Part shown: positions 347-43,617 of the stretch, piece by piece
How the letters are laid out: the number at the start of each line of letters is the position of its first letter
Numbering within the stretch: the stretch's first letter is position 1
Virus record (IMG/VR): IMGVR_UViG_3300025646_000090
Span: 1-43,617 of that record
Origin: a virus
Direction: 5' to 3' (one strand)
Length of the DNA: 43,617 bases
Notes under the pieces: generated by a model
The model's database searches: none
What the model saw: only the letters and a program-made list of their open reading frames with translations
What the model was told of the DNA's origin: nothing
Position numbers and translations under genes: made by a program

Positions 347-356
347 TGGTACACTA
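347..356 (+). promoter_or_regulatory. Extended -10 phage promoter motif
   Basis: TGGTACACTA, 27 bases before the ATG of the 384 gene. It fits the recurrent WGGTANNCTA motif of this phage. Confidence 0.55.
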
Positions 357-2787: not shown

Positions 2788-2797
2788 TGGTATACTA
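2788..2797 (+). promoter_or_regulatory. Extended -10 phage promoter motif (best consensus)
   Basis: TGGTATACTA, 20 bases before the ATG of the mini-ORF at 2818. Confidence 0.7.
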
Positions 2798-3052: not shown

Positions 3053-3062
3053 TGGTACCCTA
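3053..3062 (+). promoter_or_regulatory. Extended -10 phage promoter motif
   Basis: TGGTACCCTA, 30 bases before the ATG at 3093. The spacing is longer than usual. Confidence 0.5.
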
Positions 3063-7041: not shown

Positions 7042-7051
7042 TGGTATCCTA
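7042..7051 (+). promoter_or_regulatory. Extended -10 phage promoter motif
   Basis: TGGTATCCTA, 21 bases before the tape measure ATG and directly after the terminator. Confidence 0.7.
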
Positions 7052-13103: not shown

Positions 13104-13113
13104 TGGAATACTA
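13104..13113 (+). promoter_or_regulatory. Extended -10 phage promoter motif
   Basis: TGGAATACTA, 26 bases before the ATG at 13140. Confidence 0.55.
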
Positions 13114-15108: not shown

Positions 15109-16620
15109 ATGGTTCTAGGAAATAGCCAAAATATAGTTCCTAAGCTGTTTAATAAGGTTCAACAAGAAATTTATAGGGCGCCTTTTGTCCCTATAGGTTC
15201 TATGGTTAGTCCTATATTTGCAGGGCTATCCTCTAGAGCAAAAGATAATACGGCTACAACATATTTAGCTACTACTAATACTAAGTGTTCAAGTTCGCAA
15301 GAATGTGGCGCTGGTTTTTATTGTAATAATGGGACTTGTGTTTCTTCGGGTGGAGGTAATACTTATTCTATAACATCTGGGATAGGCTGCTCTGTTGGAC
15401 CTAATGGAGTAGATTCGGGAACATATGGGGGAGGTGGTTCTAGATGTGGGTCCTCTTCTGGTACAGGGAATGGTTGTTATTCTGCTGGATGCGGTCAAGG
15501 ATCCCGTGTAAATGATGCGGCTTCTAGTGGGTCTAAGGGTAACCCCTGTGCCACTTGTTGCCGAGAAGATTCTTCTGGGAATGTACGATGCACATCAGGC
15601 AGCTGTCCACCTGAAGGTACCTGCTCTGAGTATTGTACAAATGAAAAGGAAAGTTACGGCTCTTATGGCGAAGGGTGTGACTCTAGAAATACTTGTACAG
15701 AATGCTCTAGTTGTAATGACGGGACTTGTGAAGAAAAATCAGATGCTGAAAGACCCTGCCATTGCAATAATGAATGTGGTGAAAGAGAAGACATAACTTG
15801 TTGTAATTTTAGAGATACTTGCAAAGGTCGTATAGAAGGTCTTTATTGTCACCCTACATATAGAACATGGTACCCTCGTTGTTATGACCCAGATGTCGAA
15901 TGCCTACCTGGAGGCAGTGCTTGTAGAGGATGTACCACGGGGAGTGGACCATCAGTACCTGATGGTTGCACATCTAAAGGATTTATTACAAGTGATTTAA
16001 CAGGAGAAACTATTTATATTTATGAGTGCTGTGAAGTTTTAAATGAAAAACCTGGGTGTGTTCAATGTGATGAAGATCAGAATTGTGGTGAGTGTCAATA
16101 TTGCGATAGAGGACTTTGCGTAAAATATAGTAATTGCCCAGGAAAATATGTACCTCCTCCAGTTTATGCTAGGGCTGTAGGTACTGTTTATGGTAATGGG
16201 TGGTATGGTCCTCCAGAACAATATAATTTTACAGGGTATTGGGTAAATGTCAGTAATGGGGAATCTATAGGAGCCGTTCGGGCACCAAATTTACTTCCTA
16301 GTTATCCTAATTATTGTGTTGAGTATTCTGAAGGAGGCCCTTGGGTAAGTACTAGAGTAATCACGCATCCCGGAGATTTTGGATGTAGTATTGAGTGTAA
16401 CAATTGTAATATGTTTGTTGTGTATGATGCAAATGGGAACTATCTCAATCCATATTCGGGTAAAGTAGGCTATCAAAAATATACAAATTTAAACGATCCT
16501 CCTGAAATAGTAGCTTGGGGGAATGTAAAATTTGAATTTAGTTACAACCAGCAGGATGTTTTTTATTCTAATTCTGGTAATGCGGATCCTAACTTTCCTT
16601 CTAATTTACCTCAAGCTTAA
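15109..16620 (+). CDS. Cysteine-rich virion-type protein, 503 aa, with three C-x5-C-x5-C-x4-C repeats
   Basis: About 45 Cys are present, most of them between residues 60 and 343. Three near-identical repeats, C-x5-C-x5-C-x4-C, start at residues 60, 190 and 320, about 130 residues apart, each ending in C-[N/D]-x-G-x-C. Between them are other paired Cys (CATCC, CHCN, CCNF, ECCE). Residues 1-59 have no Cys and may anchor the protein to the tail. The C-terminal 150 residues are Tyr/Asn-rich and beta-like with a four-Cys cluster. The spacing recalls small disulphide modules of extracellular animal proteins; metal binding is an alternative. No signal peptide is seen. It closes the tail tip operon. 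Shadow frames at 15289-15498 and 15512-15796 were left out. Confidence 0.7.
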   Translation: MVLGNSQNIVPKLFNKVQQEIYRAPFVPIGSMVSPIFAGLSSRAKDNTATTYLATTNTKCSSSQECGAGFYCNNGTCVSSGGGNTYSITSGIGCSVGPNGVDSGTYGGGGSRCGSSSGTGNGCYSAGCGQGSRVNDAASSGSKGNPCATCCREDSSGNVRCTSGSCPPEGTCSEYCTNEKESYGSYGEGCDSRNTCTECSSCNDGTCEEKSDAERPCHCNNECGEREDITCCNFRDTCKGRIEGLYCHPTYRTWYPRCYDPDVECLPGGSACRGCTTGSGPSVPDGCTSKGFITSDLTGETIYIYECCEVLNEKPGCVQCDEDQNCGECQYCDRGLCVKYSNCPGKYVPPPVYARAVGTVYGNGWYGPPEQYNFTGYWVNVSNGESIGAVRAPNLLPSYPNYCVEYSEGGPWVSTRVITHPGDFGCSIECNNCNMFVVYDANGNYLNPYSGKVGYQKYTNLNDPPEIVAWGNVKFEFSYNQQDVFYSNSGNADPNFPSNLPQA

Positions 16621-16630
16621 GTGATGTTAA

Positions 16631-16640
16631 TGGTAAACTA
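16631..16640 (+). promoter_or_regulatory. Extended -10 phage promoter motif
   Basis: TGGTAAACTA, 19 bases before the ATG at 16660. Confidence 0.65.
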
Positions 16641-17192: not shown

Positions 17193-17202
17193 AGGTATAC
17201 TA
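17193..17202 (+). promoter_or_regulatory. Extended -10 phage promoter motif
   Basis: AGGTATACTA, 19 bases before the ATG at 17222. Confidence 0.7.
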
Positions 17203-18508: not shown

Positions 18509-19078
18509 ATGACTACTACTTCCGCTAGATTTAAACAAAAAATAGATACTTATAGTGTATGGCAAAATAGTACATTAGTTCTTGAGCCTGGTGAATTTGC
18601 GATTAGTTCTGATACTAATTATGCAAGAGTTGGTGATGGTAATCAGACTTGGAGTAATTTAACACCTTTAAATATAAAGCCTCATTCTTTAGAAAGATAC
18701 CAAGATGTTGATTTTCAAAATCCTGTAGTTACTGCGTGGGTACCTATTGTCTATATGGGACCTGTATGGCAATGGCGTAGTGGTCCACCTATTGTATACA
18801 TTGATCCTGTTACAAGTGCTTACAATTATAGTATTGATGTTTTTAATGATGTAGATATTAGTACTACTTCTTTAGTTTCTGGTGATATCTTAAGTTGGGA
18901 TGTAGTGAATACACAATTTATAAATAAAGAAGTAGTTTTAGAAAAAATAACAACTGTGGCACCTCCTAATTTAAGCACAGATACAGGCGAAGAAGGTGAA
19001 ATAAGATTTGGAGCGGGTTATTTGTATATTTGTATAGCTATAAATACCTGGAAAAGAGCTGCTTTAAGTACTTGGTAG
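18509..19078 (+). CDS. Short tail fibre, 189 aa
   Basis: It shares the N-terminal domain (EPGEFAISSDTNYARVGDGN) and the C-terminal cassette (GEIRFGAGYLYICIAINTW, KRAALSTW) with the 17222 fibre but lacks the LamG domain. The middle holds FNDVDISTTSLVSGDILSWD, a variant of the same DVD..L.WD repeat. It may form heterotrimers with, or act as an adaptor for, its longer paralogue. No promoter motif was found, so it is probably cotranscribed with 17222. The promoter of the next gene overlaps its stop codon. Confidence 0.75.
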   Translation: MTTTSARFKQKIDTYSVWQNSTLVLEPGEFAISSDTNYARVGDGNQTWSNLTPLNIKPHSLERYQDVDFQNPVVTAWVPIVYMGPVWQWRSGPPIVYIDPVTSAYNYSIDVFNDVDISTTSLVSGDILSWDVVNTQFINKEVVLEKITTVAPPNLSTDTGEEGEIRFGAGYLYICIAINTWKRAALSTW

Positions 19079-19082
19079 ACTA
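19073..19082 (+). promoter_or_regulatory. Extended -10 phage promoter motif
   Basis: TGGTAGACTA, 19 bases before the ATG at 19102. It overlaps the stop codon of the 18509 gene. Confidence 0.6.
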
Positions 19083-19496: not shown

Positions 19497-19506
19497 AGGT
19501 ATACTA
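19497..19506 (+). promoter_or_regulatory. Extended -10 phage promoter motif
   Basis: AGGTATACTA, 24 bases before ATG 19531, or 21 before the in-frame GTG at 19528. Confidence 0.7.
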
Positions 19507-23219: not shown

Positions 23220-24299
23220 ATGACTGCTACTATTGCAACACGTCCTAGTTTTTCTATTTGGGAACAGTTTTGTCAATGGGTGACTTCCACCAACAACCGC
23301 CTGTATGTGGGATGGTTCGGTGTGCTGATGATCCCCACCCTGCTGGCTGCCACCATTTGCTTCATTGTCGCCTTTGTGGCTGCTCCTCCCGTCGATATTG
23401 ACGGTATCCGTGAACCTGTTGCCGGTGCATTGCTTTATGGAAACAATCTCATCTCTGGAGCAGTTGTCCCCTCCAGTAACGCAATCGGACTACATTTCTA
23501 TCCAATTTGGGAAGCTAATAGCCTTGACGAATGGCTCTATAACGGGGGCCCGTACCAATTGGTCGTCTTCCACTTCCTTATTGGCGTCTTCTCTTACATG
23601 GGACGCGAATGGGAACTTAGCTATCGATTAGGGATGCGGCCTTGGATCTGCGTCGCGTATTCGGCTCCTGTGGCTGCGGCAACTGCAGTATTCCTTGTTT
23701 ATCCTTTTGGTCAAGGTTCTTTTTCTGATGGTATGCCTCTGGGTATCAGCGGCACCTTCAACTACATGCTGGTGTTCCAGGCTGAGCACAACATTCTGAT
23801 GCACCCCTTCCACATGCTGGGTGTGGCCGGTGTGTTCGGCGGCAGCCTGTTCTCCGCCATGCACGGTTCGCTGGTGACCTCCAGCCTGGTGCGTGAAACT
23901 ACTGAAATTATTAGCCAAAATTATGGATATAAATTCGGCCAAGAAGAGGAAACCTATAATATTGTAGCTGCTCATGGTTACTTTGGTCGTCTTATTTTTC
24001 AATACGCTAGCTTTAACAATTCTCGTAGTCTCCACTTTTTCCTTGCAGCATGGCCTGTTGTGGGTATTTGGTTCGCTGCTCTTGGCGTATCTACTATGGC
24101 GTTTAATTTAAATGGATTTAATTTTAATCAGTCTCTGCTGGATACTCAAAATAATGTAATTAATACCTGGGCAGATGTGCTGAATCGGGCTAATTTAGGT
24201 TTTGAGGTGATGCACGAGCGCAATGCTCATAATTTCCCTCTGGACCTTGCAGCTACGGAATTTACTCCCGTGGCTTTAAAAGCTCCGGTTATTGGTTGA
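23220..24299 (+). CDS. psbA: Photosystem II reaction centre protein D1, 359 aa
   Basis: Full-length D1. It aligns without gaps to the cyanobacterial protein in the first 130 residues ([33 protein letters not shown]) and keeps the plastoquinone and manganese-ligand regions ([31 protein letters not shown]). Residue 130 is Glu (MGREWELS), as in the high-light D1:2 form rather than the Gln of D1:1. The C-terminal processing site after LDLA is present. In infected cells phage D1 replaces turned-over host D1 so that photosynthesis continues. Codon use is patchy: 23280-23390 and 23740-23905 are C/G-ending, the rest T/A-ending, which suggests recombination. It has a long leader and a strong terminator, so it is expressed alone. 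Confidence 0.99.
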
Positions 24300-24321: not shown

Positions 24322-24347
24322 ACCACCCCTATATGGGGTGGTTTTTT
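24322..24347 (+). terminator. Intrinsic terminator after psbA
   Basis: ACCACCCC (24322-24329) and GGGGTGGT (24335-24342) pair around TATAT, followed by a run of T. Confidence 0.9.
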
Positions 24348-24349
24348 AT

Positions 24350-24359
24350 TGGAACACTA
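24350..24359 (+). promoter_or_regulatory. Extended -10 phage promoter motif of hli
   Basis: TGGAACACTA, 21 bases before the ATG at 24381. It fixes that start. Confidence 0.6.
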
Positions 24360-24380
24360 AGACACCTTTTATGTGTTATT

Positions 24381-24515
24381 ATGTCGGATCGTAATGTTCA
24401 CGAGACTCATTATGAGCGAGCTGAGCGTTTAAATGGACGCCTTGCTATGGTTGGTTTTATTGCAGCCGTTGGGGCGTATTTTGTAACTGGTCAAATTTTT
24501 CCTGGTGTTTTCTGA
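24381..24515 (+). CDS. hli: High-light-inducible protein, 44 aa
   Basis: A single-helix chlorophyll-binding protein. ERAERLNGRLAMVGF is the Hlip/ELIP signature (E..NGR.AM.GF), with the ligand-binding Glu and Asn-Gly-Arg in place, and the helix continues IAAVGAYFVTGQIFPG. Phage Hlips are thought to protect photosystem II and D1 assembly from excess light. An in-frame ATG at 24333 would start inside the psbA terminator and before the promoter motif, so 24381 is used. It follows psbA directly but has its own promoter, so the two photosynthesis genes are adjacent yet separately transcribed. Confidence 0.95.
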   Translation: MSDRNVHETHYERAERLNGRLAMVGFIAAVGAYFVTGQIFPGVF

Positions 24516-25032: not shown

Positions 25033-25344
25033 ATGCCGGATCATTTGTTTGTTCTTGTTATTACTGCTATGTTAGGTTGGGGCGGTTTTACATGGCGTCG
25101 ATCTGAGCACGCTGTTGATTTAGCAGGAAAAGCATGTGATCGTTCAGATCAATTAGAAATTAAATTAGCAGAGAAATATCTCAGTAAGCAAGAATTTGAA
25201 ATTCAAATGGAGCGTTTATTTAATACCTTAAATCGTTTTGAACAAAAATTAGATTTTCATGTGTATGCTCAGACCCAAGATATTAATAAACTTAGGGCTA
25301 GGTTAAGACAGTATGAAAAATCTGATGATGATGGTATACTATAA
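25033..25344 (+). CDS. Membrane-anchored coiled-coil protein, possible spanin/holin-like, 103 aa
   Basis: The start at ATG 25033 follows from the promoter motif and from the terminator lying inside the longer open frame. Residues 3-20 are an N-terminal membrane segment (DHLFVLVITAMLGWGGFTW) with WRRS at its end. The rest is a charged coiled coil (LEIKLAEKYLSKQEFEIQME and onward) ending in an acidic tail. This layout fits an inner-membrane lysis protein or a virion-associated anchor. The lysin lies 2.3 kb downstream rather than adjacent, which weakens the lysis reading. Confidence 0.65.
   Translation: MPDHLFVLVITAMLGWGGFTWRRSEHAVDLAGKACDRSDQLEIKLAEKYLSKQEFEIQMERLFNTLNRFEQKLDFHVYAQTQDINKLRARLRQYEKSDDDGIL
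25332..25341 (+). promoter_or_regulatory. Extended -10 phage promoter motif (best consensus)
   Basis: TGGTATACTA, 21 bases before the ATG at 25363. It lies inside the last codons of the 25033 gene. Confidence 0.7.
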
Positions 25345-25901: not shown

Positions 25902-25911
25902 TGGTAACCTA
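25902..25911 (+). promoter_or_regulatory. Extended -10 phage promoter motif
   Basis: TGGTAACCTA, 20 bases before the ATG at 25932. Confidence 0.7.
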
Positions 25912-26223: not shown

Positions 26224-26233
26224 TGGTATCCTA
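26224..26233 (+). promoter_or_regulatory. Extended -10 phage promoter motif
   Basis: TGGTATCCTA, 22 bases before the ATG at 26256. Confidence 0.7.
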
Positions 26234-32232: not shown

Positions 32233-34224
32233 TTAGTGTGCTTCACTCCAACGATGACCCATCAGAGTTTCGCATTCTAGGGGAATAGTACCTAGGTATT
32301 TTTTCTGAAGATCAGCGTCACTCATACATTCTTTAACGATTTTTGCGGCATATTCTGCTTTGGCTTCAGGGACTTCCAACAGAATTTCGTCATGGACAAG
32401 ATGCAGGGGGATAACGTCAGGATTAGGAACGACTAGGCGCTCCCAGACCAGTATAGCAGCCTCTGCGAGCAAATCACGCCCAGCAGCCTGGATGGGCCAG
32501 TTCACCCCGTTGGTATGGATCAGGGGGCCTTCCTCAGGCCTGATATGGCCCCATTTATTGGTTTTCTTGCCTCCGAGGGGGCTGGGGGTGCCCATGATAC
32601 GACCAAGAGTGCTCCTAAGGAAATATTTTGGATTATTTTTGTCTCTAAATACTGACATTTGTGCAGAGATCATGTAATGCGTTTCATGCCAGGCTGTATA
32701 GGCTTTTTCTGCTTCAGCTTTATCTACTTTACGTTTGAGCACACTTTCTAGTTGGGCGTGTAGTTTATTGACACCGCAGCCGTACTGTAAGGCAAAGTTC
32801 GCGGTTTTGCCCACGGCACGTTGCTCAGAAGTCACTTCATCCTCAGGAACACCGAAGATTTTAGATGCCATTCGGCGGTGAGCATCAATATTAGGATCCA
32901 GAGCAAGCTCTTGCATAGCTGGGTCTTTATAGGTATGAGCTGCCAGGCGCACCTCGATGGCACTGAAGTCAGCGTCTAGCATTATATACCCAGGTCTAGC
33001 CACAAAGAACTCACGGGTTGTCTTAGGGGCTCCGTGTAAAGTTGCTCCCAGAATAATAGTAGTTGTTTTTTCTTTGCCCGTTTTAGTGAATTCACCAGAT
33101 GGCACAGAGCCCTTGAAGGCTGTAGGACAAGACATACGCCCTGTATCGGCTCCAATCACCCTGAGGTTTGGATGTACAGTTCCTCCAGTAAGCTCAGCCA
33201 TATTAAGCCAAGGTAGAATGTAAGTCCCGATAGTTTTAACAACTTCTTTTAATTCAAGCAGAACAGAAACTTGAGGATGCTTTCTAGCTAGGAATTCAAT
33301 GGTCTGCTTGTTGGTACTAGTAACGTCAGGGTCTAATTGTTGCAGTACTGGTAGTAATTGTGCAGGGCTATTGGGGTTATTTACGCCAAAGACTTCACAG
33401 CATTTAGCATAAAGTCGTTCTTTTTCTGCCTCTAATTTTATCTTGGTTTCTTGTACTTTTTCTACGTCTAAGGTAATACCATTAGCATTACAAGCTGCCA
33501 TCATGGGCAGTACGCGGAAATCTGCGCGTGCAGCAGCAAGCTGTTTGGTCTGTTGTAGACGTTCTTGATACAGTTTTTCTAAATCTAGGACACATAGAGC
33601 ATCTTTAGAAGCATAAACTAATTGAGATTGTGTCAGATCAGCACCCCAATTAGAAGTCTGTTCATCTTTATCTAGGAAGGCTTTTAAATCTCTACCTACG
33701 CAACTACCCAGGTCTAGTCCATAACCACTGCCTCTATTGGGTTCTAAGGGTAATAGATTAGCACTAAGAACCCTAGCGGCTACTTGAGTATCGAAGACAT
33801 CAGCAGTAGCACGTATTCCTAAGTGTTCCATATATAGAAACTCAAAAGCCAGATTATGGCCAACAATGGTACGTTTATCCCTGGGGCATTCTAATAAAGT
33901 TTTAAGAAAAGCTAGGCCTTCAGTGGGCACAGCTTTCATATCTATAATTATAACGTAGCGTTCATAGGTGTCAGTAATAAAACCGATCTGTACAGTACGA
34001 ACTTTGCCTCCAATATAGGGGTACAACGAAGCTACGTGGCGCCAGATATCTTGACGTTCATTATAGGTTTCTATATCAAAACCCAGTTTTTTTGGAGAAA
34101 CAGTTTTAAGCAGTTGCCGAGCACCTTTAACTTTATCTTGGGTATCTACCAGCAGTAAAATGTCTGGTTCTGGGTAGGGTGCGTAATCTTTGAAGGGGTC
34201 AATGGGGGCTTCTTTTTTAGGCAT
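32233..34224 (-). CDS. polA: Family A DNA polymerase with 3'-5' exonuclease, 663 aa
   Basis: Replicative phage polymerase. The exonuclease domain has Exo I LGFDIETY (D50, E52), Exo II GHNLAFEFLYM and Exo III YASKDALCVLDL. Polymerase motifs follow: A, LDADFSAIEVRLAA; B, RAVGKTANFALQYG; C, LVHDEILLEV. The residue equivalent to E. coli Phe762 is Phe (KTANF). There is no 5'-3' exonuclease domain. The gene lies downstream of the 34224, 34611 and 34902 small genes. Length is usual for phage enzymes. The + frames at 32360 and 32957 are shadows. Confidence 0.97.
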   Translation of the reverse strand: MPKKEAPIDPFKDYAPYPEPDILLLVDTQDKVKGARQLLKTVSPKKLGFDIETYNERQDIWRHVASLYPYIGGKVRTVQIGFITDTYERYVIIIDMKAVPTEGLAFLKTLLECPRDKRTIVGHNLAFEFLYMEHLGIRATADVFDTQVAARVLSANLLPLEPNRGSGYGLDLGSCVGRDLKAFLDKDEQTSNWGADLTQSQLVYASKDALCVLDLEKLYQERLQQTKQLAAARADFRVLPMMAACNANGITLDVEKVQETKIKLEAEKERLYAKCCEVFGVNNPNSPAQLLPVLQQLDPDVTSTNKQTIEFLARKHPQVSVLLELKEVVKTIGTYILPWLNMAELTGGTVHPNLRVIGADTGRMSCPTAFKGSVPSGEFTKTGKEKTTTIILGATLHGAPKTTREFFVARPGYIMLDADFSAIEVRLAAHTYKDPAMQELALDPNIDAHRRMASKIFGVPEDEVTSEQRAVGKTANFALQYGCGVNKLHAQLESVLKRKVDKAEAEKAYTAWHETHYMISAQMSVFRDKNNPKYFLRSTLGRIMGTPSPLGGKKTNKWGHIRPEEGPLIHTNGVNWPIQAAGRDLLAEAAILVWERLVVPNPDVIPLHLVHDEILLEVPEAKAEYAAKIVKECMSDADLQKKYLGTIPLECETLMGHRWSEAH

Positions 34225-36678: not shown

Positions 36679-36688
36679 TAGGATACCA
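36679..36688 (-). promoter_or_regulatory. Extended -10 phage promoter motif, - strand
   Basis: TGGTATCCTA, 12 bases before ATG 36666 and 45 before ATG 36633 of the portal. Confidence 0.6.
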
Positions 36689-41628: not shown

Positions 41629-41638
41629 CATTCTATCA
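41629..41638 (-). promoter_or_regulatory. Extended -10 promoter, - strand
   Basis: TGATAGAATG, 20 bases before the ATG at 41608. It overlaps the sigma gene stop codon. Confidence 0.5.
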
Positions 41639-42319
41639 ATCCTCTAGTTCCCATGTGCTAAAGTCTGGCTCAGGACAGTCGGTAATTTTTAATATTCTAT
41701 CCAAAGTTTTTACGGCATCTACTGGGTATTTATTAGTCTCAGATAGTAAGAAGCCTTGCAGTTTTTCTTGCTGTGTTTCTGTTAATTCTTTTAAAACACC
41801 TTCCGCTTGTTTGATATATTGCTGCGTCATATCGATGTCTGGAATTTCAATATCAATAGTTGGAGCCCCTTGCTCTTTTAGCTCTAAAGGGGGACCGCTG
41901 CAAGTTACTCTAGTTTCTAACCATTCACTAAGGTCTATACCTAAAGCTTCTGCAATAGCATAGTCAGAATGTCCTTTGTAAATTAACTTGCGACCTTTTA
42001 ACCAATTCTCGCGCATTTTATGGCTAAGGCGCAATAGATATGTCCTATCTCTGATGTAATGTAATATAGCACCTCTGGTGTAAGGTACTGCAATAGAGCT
42101 GAATTTCATAGATTGTCCCGTATGTTCATTAATTAGCTCTGGATCGTATTTGTACGCTGCTTGACACAAGCCTTCAAAGGCCACAGACTCTAGGGTTCTG
42201 TAATCTATTTCTGTACGTCGCTGGTAACGCCAAGCTTCCCGCCGTGCTAGGTTTAAATTATCAACTACGAGTTGTTGTTGCTCAGCATTAAGTTTAAATT
42301 TGGCTGCTGATCTTGCCAT
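41636..42319 (-). CDS. Phage sigma70-family factor lacking an evident region 4, 227 aa
   Basis: Residues 18-92 match sigma region 2: NLNLARREAWRYQRRTEIDY, LESVAFEGLCQAAYKYDP, MKFSSIAVPYTRGAILHYIR. Region 3-like helices follow (LSHKMRENWLKGRKLIYKGH, YAIAEALGIDL). The last 60 residues (VLKELTETQQEKLQGFLLSE) show only a hint of region 4 and no clear helix-turn-helix. Region 2 opens and reads the -10; region 4 normally reads the -35. The factor may drive the extended -10 promoters found across this window. Its own promoter-like TGGTAGAATG lies 28 bases before the ATG. Confidence 0.8.
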   Translation of the reverse strand: MARSAAKFKLNAEQQQLVVDNLNLARREAWRYQRRTEIDYRTLESVAFEGLCQAAYKYDPELINEHTGQSMKFSSIAVPYTRGAILHYIRDRTYLLRLSHKMRENWLKGRKLIYKGHSDYAIAEALGIDLSEWLETRVTCSGPPLELKEQGAPTIDIEIPDIDMTQQYIKQAEGVLKELTETQQEKLQGFLLSETNKYPVDAVKTLDRILKITDCPEPDFSTWELED

Positions 42320-42346: not shown

Positions 42347-43617
42347 TCATTCTACCAAATACTGAGCTTTTTTGCTTAATATAGGCCGAGCTTGACGGCC
42401 CCATTCAACTGTAGTTAATTGAGGCGCTCGTTTCTGGCTACAGTAATTAATAGCCATCGATAGAGCGTCTACCATGTCATCATTTTTACTGGCAGGGAAT
42501 AAACTGAATTCATTAATAAATGATTCTAACCAAAGAGCCGATTGTGGTAGATATACATTCCCTGCCTCCACTGTAGGGATAATGCCAGAAGCCCTTGCGA
42601 CTTTGCTTTTACCGTGAGGATTGTAACCTATGATGCCAGGTATCTTTTTACGCATCATCTGGAATACGGCAAAACCACTAGCAGCTAATTCAATTAAGCA
42701 CCCGCTAGGTTTATATCGTTTGTATAAACGAGAAATCATAGTCATAGTCCCTACGATATCTAGTTTTTCTCGGACAATTTCCAATACATAGAAGCTGTTG
42801 CCGGCCTGGCCCACAACTGCCCCCACAACATAGTCGCTATGTTTGGATTCAGTGAAAGTACAGTCAACACTTACAATTAGGCGTTCAAAATCAGGTAGAT
42901 CATCATCCACTCCGTAATACTGCCACCAGGAGGGATCAAATAAGTTACCACCTTCAGGTGCTGGGCGCTGCTGGTACAGCGATGCAAAGTCCCGACTACC
43001 TACGGCTTCTCTGATGCGCACCAGGGCCTTTTCATCGTACCGCTGAGGGCATAGGGCTTGGCCTATCTCTTCGCGCCAGTCAGGTACCACATAGCAATGC
43101 TGTGGTAGTGGTGGTCGGTCCCCAGGATCTTCATAGATGGCAGGCAGATCGATGATCGTCCAGTTCTCACGGGCTTCTTCAGAAACATTCATCTCCTGCT
43201 CCAGAGAGCGCCCAATTAGGTCGTTTTCTGCCCACCTAGTTTGCAGCATCACAATTGCTCCAATTTCAGGCTCTAGACGGGTGTACAGCGCAGAGGTGTA
43301 CCAATCCCATAGTCGCTGATTGATTAGAGGGCTTTCAGCTTCTGTACGGTCTTTGGTGGTGTCATCCAGAATAAGTAAATGACCTGAACGGCCAGTAACT
43401 GTACCACCTGTACCTGTTGCCCAGCAACTACCACCTTGCTCTGTTTTCCATAGCGTAACAGCCTGAGCATAAGGATCCAGCTGACCCCCAGCTGATCGAA
43501 ACATCTCTCGGGCTTCTCGGTTAAAACTTTGAGCCAGTTCCGCAGAGTATGAGGTGATACCAATGTTGCGCTCTGGATGAGCTAATAGGTATGCTGCAGG
43601 GAATAATTTAGAACTTA
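42347..43617 (-). CDS. terL: Terminase large subunit, C-terminal 422 residues (5' end beyond the window)
   Basis: The frame is open to the right edge, so ATG 43504 is internal. The visible part begins SSKLFPAAYLLAHPERNIGI, the ATPase domain after Walker A. HLLILDDTTKDR is the Walker B region, and TRWAENDLIGRSLE the coupling region. The nuclease domain has VSVDCTFTESKHSDYVVGAV, LIELAASGFAVFQMM and a final NDDMVDALSMAINY, each with the expected acidic residue. It packages DNA into the prohead through the portal. The small subunit is not visible. The gene is next to the sigma factor and on the strand opposite the capsid gene. Confidence 0.95.
   Translation of the reverse strand, partial: SSKLFPAAYLLAHPERNIGITSYSAELAQSFNREAREMFRSAGGQLDPYAQAVTLWKTEQGGSCWATGTGGTVTGRSGHLLILDDTTKDRTEAESPLINQRLWDWYTSALYTRLEPEIGAIVMLQTRWAENDLIGRSLEQEMNVSEEARENWTIIDLPAIYEDPGDRPPLPQHCYVVPDWREEIGQALCPQRYDEKALVRIREAVGSRDFASLYQQRPAPEGGNLFDPSWWQYYGVDDDLPDFERLIVSVDCTFTESKHSDYVVGAVVGQAGNSFYVLEIVREKLDIVGTMTMISRLYKRYKPSGCLIELAASGFAVFQMMRKKIPGIIGYNPHGKSKVARASGIIPTVEAGNVYLPQSALWLESFINEFSLFPASKNDDMVDALSMAINYCSQKRAPQLTTVEWGRQARPILSKKAQYLVE
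42348..42357 (-). promoter_or_regulatory. Extended -10 promoter of the sigma gene, - strand
   Basis: TGGTAGAATG, 28 bases before the ATG at 42319. It overlaps the terminase stop codon. Confidence 0.5.

Follow-up and report, generated by a model that had tools for sequence, protein, structure and literature searches.

Next to terL in a cyanosiphovirus genome lies a gene for a short sigma factor without a recognisable region 4, which raises the question of which promoters such a protein would read. The window, that is, the whole stretch of DNA analysed here, is IMG/VR record IMGVR_UViG_3300025646_000090, a linear fragment of 43,617 bases from a cyanosiphovirus whose cultured relatives are S-CBS2, S-CRES1-3 and P-SS2. 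As read from translations, virion genes lie mostly on the plus strand, replication and nucleotide-metabolism genes lie on the minus strand, and both psbA (23220-24299) and an hli-type gene (24333-24515) are present; gene starts were set mechanically. The virion block also encodes a 503-aa cysteine-rich protein (15109-16620) that has no PHROG match. Because the window is a fragment, a second sigma factor, a clamp or a coactivator cannot be inferred to be absent from the phage. We consider it likely that the short sigma factor is the late sigma of this cyanosiphovirus and would steer the host polymerase to -10-only late promoters of the form GGHANMCTA. Coordinates of the features discussed are collected in Table 1.

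Table 1. Coordinates of the sigma factor, its domains, the promoters of the window and loci of related contigs
Feature	Record	Coordinates	Strand	Basis
Late sigma factor (putative), group-3/SigF type, 227 aa	window	41636..42319	minus	PHROG_36098, Sigma70_r2 in relatives, NCBIfam SigF profile, AF2
Sigma region 2, residues 12-97, four helices	window	42029..42286	minus	AF2 helices 12-20, 22-36, 40-57, 73-97
Sigma region 3-like helices, residues 100-140	window	41900..42022	minus	AF2 helices 100-114, 119-126, 130-140
C-terminal three-helix part, residues 164-212, possible sigma-4.1 remnant	window	41684..41830	minus	AF2; weak hhalign
Putative late promoter TGGTACACTA	window	347..356	plus	EM motif
Putative late promoter -10 element TGGTATACTA (named earlier)	window	2788..2797	plus	EM motif
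Putative late promoter TGGTACCCTA	window	3053..3062	plus	EM motif
Putative late promoter TGGTATCCTA ahead of tape-measure gene, right after terminator-like hairpin (named earlier)	window	7042..7051	plus	EM motif
Putative late promoter TGGAATACTA	window	13104..13113	plus	EM motif
Putative late promoter TGGTAAACTA	window	16631..16640	plus	EM motif
Putative late promoter AGGTATACTA	window	17193..17202	plus	EM motif
Putative late promoter TGGTAGACTA	window	19073..19082	plus	EM motif
Putative late promoter AGGTATACTA	window	19497..19506	plus	EM motif
Putative late promoter TGGTATACTA	window	25332..25341	plus	EM motif
Putative late promoter TGGTAACCTA	window	25902..25911	plus	EM motif
Putative late promoter TGGTATCCTA	window	26224..26233	plus	EM motif
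Putative late promoter TGGTATCCTA ahead of portal gene, among early genes	window	36679..36688	minus	EM motif
Promoter-like TGGTAGAATG ahead of the sigma gene itself	window	42348..42357	minus	EM motif
RusA resolvase, tail-bearing clade	L047	1812-2201		
RusA resolvase, tail-bearing clade	L048	1276-1647		
RusA resolvase, tail-bearing clade	L050	2170-2541		
RusA resolvase, tail-bearing clade	L037	4922-5302		
RusA resolvase, tail-bearing clade	L002	15272-15643		
S-CBS2 rpoS frameshift locus	L002	20001-20757 (= S-CBS2 56832-57588)		

Domain anatomy of the sigma factor

The ORF is a SigF/group-3-type sigma factor in which regions 2 and 3 can be made out but a region 4 cannot, as the earlier note had read from its helices. 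It matched PHROG_36098 (RNA polymerase sigma factor) with an E of 1.8e-75, and its position beside terL is shared with the orthologues. The gene downstream encodes a phosphoesterase in the window and a DnaG-like primase in S-CRES1, S-CRES3 and S-CBS2. Pfam Sigma70_r2 was present in all 62 family members scanned (best E 6.4e-8), and on the window protein alone it scored E 0.0097, below the cut-off. The best NCBIfam model was PRK07408, cyanobacterial SigF (68 bits, E 8e-19), in which window residues 14-140 align with profile positions 29-155 of 258; since the alignment ends at position 155, the region-4 part of the profile is unmatched. PRK07408 and TIGR02980 both aligned over regions 2-3 only and missed their curated cut-offs for a full-length group-3 match (68 vs 261 bits and 41 vs 234 bits, respectively). 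The AF2 model of the protein has a pLDDT of 83.9, and its alignment to sigma-2 domains gave Z scores of 10-13 with an rmsd of 1.1-1.9 A over 70-77 residues. Most SigA and FliA matches obtained by hmmsearch and with PDB profiles end near residue 140 (134-143), and three weaker ones extend to 161-204. Bleomycin hydrolase matches in the PDB profile search were judged spurious. An orthologue is also carried by one bacterial MAG contig, which is probably a phage contig (L137).

The structure model, of the 227-aa protein by itself, points two ways. No recognition helix is visible in the AF2 model, and nothing that would read a -35 was seen in the protein; on the other hand, residues 144-153 are disordered and are followed by three helices (164-177, 181-191 and 200-212). 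Sigma70_r4 was found in none of the 62 family members and Sigma70_r4_2 in one, with an E of 0.16, and a search of the C-terminal part with PDB profiles gave no sigma matches. The first two of the three helices aligned weakly by hhalign to region 4.1 of E. coli (E 0.0097, probability 4%), and structure aligners can place the last helices on the sigma-4 end of full-length sigmas. Because of these two alignments a partial sigma-4 remnant is possible, and it might still be able to touch the beta flap. That the helices instead form a divergent, working region 4 in contact with DNA or with a non-canonical upstream element is unlikely in our judgement, even though the model has helices at the right end of the protein and the structure alignments pair that end with sigma-4 ends: Pfam, NCBIfam and PDB profile searches gave no match, conservation of the C-terminus is poor (column identity 37% on average), and the 63 aligned promoters described below have no conserved upstream element. 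A sigma factor that keeps regions 2 and 3 and has probably lost -35 reading is the form that we carry forward.

A -10-only promoter class that accompanies the sigma factor

Both promoters named earlier (2788 and 7042) match AGTGGTATMCTA exactly. As a search pattern allowing two mismatches, AGTGGTATMCTA was barely enriched in the window (14 sites vs 8.5 by chance), and the promoter class became clear only with de novo discovery confined to upstream regions. An EM search of 37 window upstream regions returned TGGTAtmCTA with a log-likelihood of 115.7, compared with 27-34 for shuffled sequences, and the sites far exceed the two already named. Most strong TGGTAnmCTA sites were computed to lie 19-22 nt 5' of a start codon, ahead of most late genes, and they precede plus-strand virion genes as well as the minus-strand portal gene. 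No site above 10 bits was found in seven upstream regions of minus-strand replication, metabolism, packaging and regulatory genes, nor did the motif reach 10 bits ahead of dCTP deaminase, RNR, terL or any small early gene tested. Although psbA lies in the late block, the 120 nt ahead of it score at best 6.9 and hold no late promoter motif. Another promoter-like class, GGTAGA[C/A]TG, was observed 5' of the sigma gene both in the window and in S-CRES1, S-CRES3, S-CBS2 and PSS2; it is perhaps a middle promoter.

A motif at a fixed distance of about 19-22 nt from the start codon could also be a translational or RNA-processing signal and no promoter at all. We regard this as very improbable, since several sites stand directly behind terminator-like hairpins, the spacing of GG, A and CT matches that of a -10, and most early genes of the window do without the motif. 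We accordingly treat the sites as putative promoters.

The same top motif was recovered de novo in S-CRES1, S-CRES3 and S-CBS2, as the variant GGAAgcCTAg in PSS2, on whose branch the consensus is shifted, and in related forms in most long metagenomic relatives. With a fixed test for GGHAnHCTA 14-26 nt ahead of an ORF, the motif was enriched in 17/17 sigma-carrying genomes (p 7e-4 to 4e-22). It is weak in some close relatives: one contig, G036, gave the p of 7e-4, and the de novo motif was missing there and in G044. None of the six cyanophages without this sigma showed GGHAnHCTA in this position, and S-CBS1, S-CBS3 and S-LBS1, which are among the six and have an RpoD-like sigma only, had no such motif. 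These computed co-occurrences agree with the earlier proposal that the sigma factor is matched to a -35-less promoter class.

The absence of a -35, also part of that proposal, was upheld in 63 pooled sites, where the best match to TTGACA reached 2.87 of 6 vs 2.84 +/- 0.10 in shuffled sequence; a weak AG stands at the expected start-site position. For these promoters, GG-type -10 element is a better description than extended -10, the term used earlier, which suits housekeeping promoters. Such GG-type elements are typical of group-3 sigmas, and are thus what would be expected of a group-3 protein. We suggest that GGHANMCTA constitutes a -10-only late promoter class.

Of 49 records, 45 also carry an RpoD-like sigma, so co-occurrence alone leaves some chance that an RpoD-like phage sigma, or a host sigma, reads the motif and that the window sigma has a different role; a second sigma may moreover lie outside the 43.6-kb fragment. 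We nevertheless think this improbable, given that the three phages with an RpoD-like sigma only have no motif, and that an RpoD-type factor would be expected at TATAAT, usually with a -35, rather than at a GG element without one. The RpoD-like phage sigma was also considered as the bearer of a region 4, but its Pfam matches were confined to regions 1.2 and 2.

We therefore retain the group-3 protein as the probable reader. Its origin would be a SigF-like sigma from which the -35-reading part of region 4 has gone, while regions 2 and 3 persist. The protein would take the place of the host sigma on the cyanobacterial RNA polymerase, with the core bound by region 2, and GG...CTA would be read by regions 2.4 and 3 while contact with a -35 is dispensed with. 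A single -10-type element, GGHANMCTA (TGGTAnmCTA in the window), would then direct late transcription, which is predicted to start about 13-16 nt ahead of the late-gene start codon. Computation, on which the whole analysis is based, shows the domain anatomy, the promoter class, where it sits relative to late genes and that it co-occurs with this sigma; from these we infer that the sigma physically pairs with the promoters, where transcription starts and that it is late.

A clamp-type C-terminus in the sister clade

One clade, with 35 of the 65 distinct complete orthologues, has a sigma factor whose last residues are Q-x-x-[L/V]-F. Across these 35 sequences Q and F never vary and L is found in 97%, behind a linker of variable sequence. 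Ends of the type Q..[LVMI]F occur in only 6 of 2743 other ORFs, namely four RusA resolvases, one DnaG primase and one PSS2 protein. The deposited rpoS of S-CBS2 (206 aa) is shortened by a frameshift relative to its orthologues, and the other frame ends GRLQGSLF; the S-CRES1 protein has GRIQGSLF at its C-terminus. As a separate observation, RusA proteins with Q-x-x-L-F or Q-x-x-L-x-F ends are frequent in the tail-bearing clade, unlike in the tail-less clade, and several further RusA proteins of the former end in QEELPF.

The bacterial beta-clamp-binding consensus is Q-L-x-L-F, usually C-terminal (PMC4549789), and T4 gp55 combines sigma-2, a divergent linker and a C-terminal clamp epitope (PMC2988020), a layout like that of the sister clade. 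A DnaG-like primase is encoded and a PolA polymerase is absent in 48/48 relatives, which therefore probably use the host Pol III and its clamp. An evenly balanced case can be made that late transcription in the sister clade is coupled to replication, in that the Q-x-x-L-F of the sigma would bind host DnaN on replicating phage DNA in parallel to T4 gp55 and gp45, with the window phage as a relative without the tether. The enrichment, the invariant residues, the S-CBS2 reading frame and the probable use of host Pol III argue for this. It is weakened by motif position 2, which is G, P or A and not L, and by the window protein and the other motif-less orthologues. Those amount to 30/65 and share the same promoter class, so the clamp would not be essential to it. 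At a similar level of confidence, one lineage of cyanosiphoviruses may have independently evolved T4-style replication-coupled late transcription, in which a SigF-derived sigma that does not recognise a -35 is tethered through Q-x-x-L-F to the beta clamp of the host in place of a phage clamp, with a RusA bearing a like motif.

The window sigma itself ends ...DFSTWELED, without the clamp motif, and none of the window ORFs of at least 60 aa ends in Q..[LVMI]F. In the tree a long branch places this sigma among other tail-less relatives, with which it has residues in common, and for this reason we make no claim of T4-like coupling in the window phage. A search of eight long tail-less contigs for a separate clamp-motif protein gave nothing recurrent. 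The suggestion that small window proteins of unknown function are coactivators gained nothing from PHROGs, which named none among 20 of them.

The window encodes a PolA-type DNA polymerase (32233-34224, minus strand) and no DnaG-like primase, the reverse of the 48 relatives, and its replication module appears to have been swapped; no relatives of this polymerase were found in IMG/VR. Loss of the clamp tail through a switch to a phage PolA was considered and set aside, as the relatives nearest in the tree and in shared residues (L065, L066, L075, L080, L089) are also tail-less and those checked keep the primase and have no PolA.

Comparison with known systems

Orthologues of the sigma gene are already annotated as sigma factors: P-SS2 ORF003 (group 3) and rpoS/SigF of S-CBS2 and S-CRES1-3, all adjoining terL and 40-57% identical. 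The window copy differs from them in its downstream gene and in the lack of a primase in the window. The authors of the P-SS2 paper placed its orthologue in group 3 and predicted that it has a specific, still unknown regulon (PMC2784084). No description of the cyanosiphovirus regulon, of the absence of region 4 or of the clamp motif was found in the open-access literature, and the regulon and the clamp-motif branch appear to be unreported. For this phage group-3 sigma, first noted in 2009, our analysis proposes the regulon that had been lacking and provides a promoter set ready for testing.

Phage sigmas without region 4 that use single-element promoters are themselves already known, from T4 gp55 and phiEco32 gp36. 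The latter has no region-4 homology and reads single-element middle and late promoters (PMC8948821); compared by description, the window sigma is alike in both respects, although the gp36 promoter is tAATGTAtA. Among curated families cyanobacterial SigF (PRK07408, group 3) remains the best for regions 2-3, with region 4 unmatched. The comparison with T4 gp55 that had been drawn earlier holds for a short sigma with sigma-2, no region 4 and -10-only late promoters (PMC2988020, PMC7892883). It does not extend to detectable homology, as BLASTP of the window sigma against one gp55, that of S-PM2, gave E 0.057 over 47 residues, and the clamp-type motif behind a divergent linker is a likeness of the sister clade only. 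The window sigma further differs from gp55 in being closest to SigF, in keeping sigma-3 and in a promoter, GGHANMCTA, that is not the T4 late element, and neither a gp33 nor a phage clamp was seen in the fragment. The comparison suggests that cyanophages, too, came to -10-only late transcription, outside the T4 lineage. Should the clamp motif be functional, a mechanism that a review confines to T4-related phages would gain a second, independent origin in which the host clamp is used.
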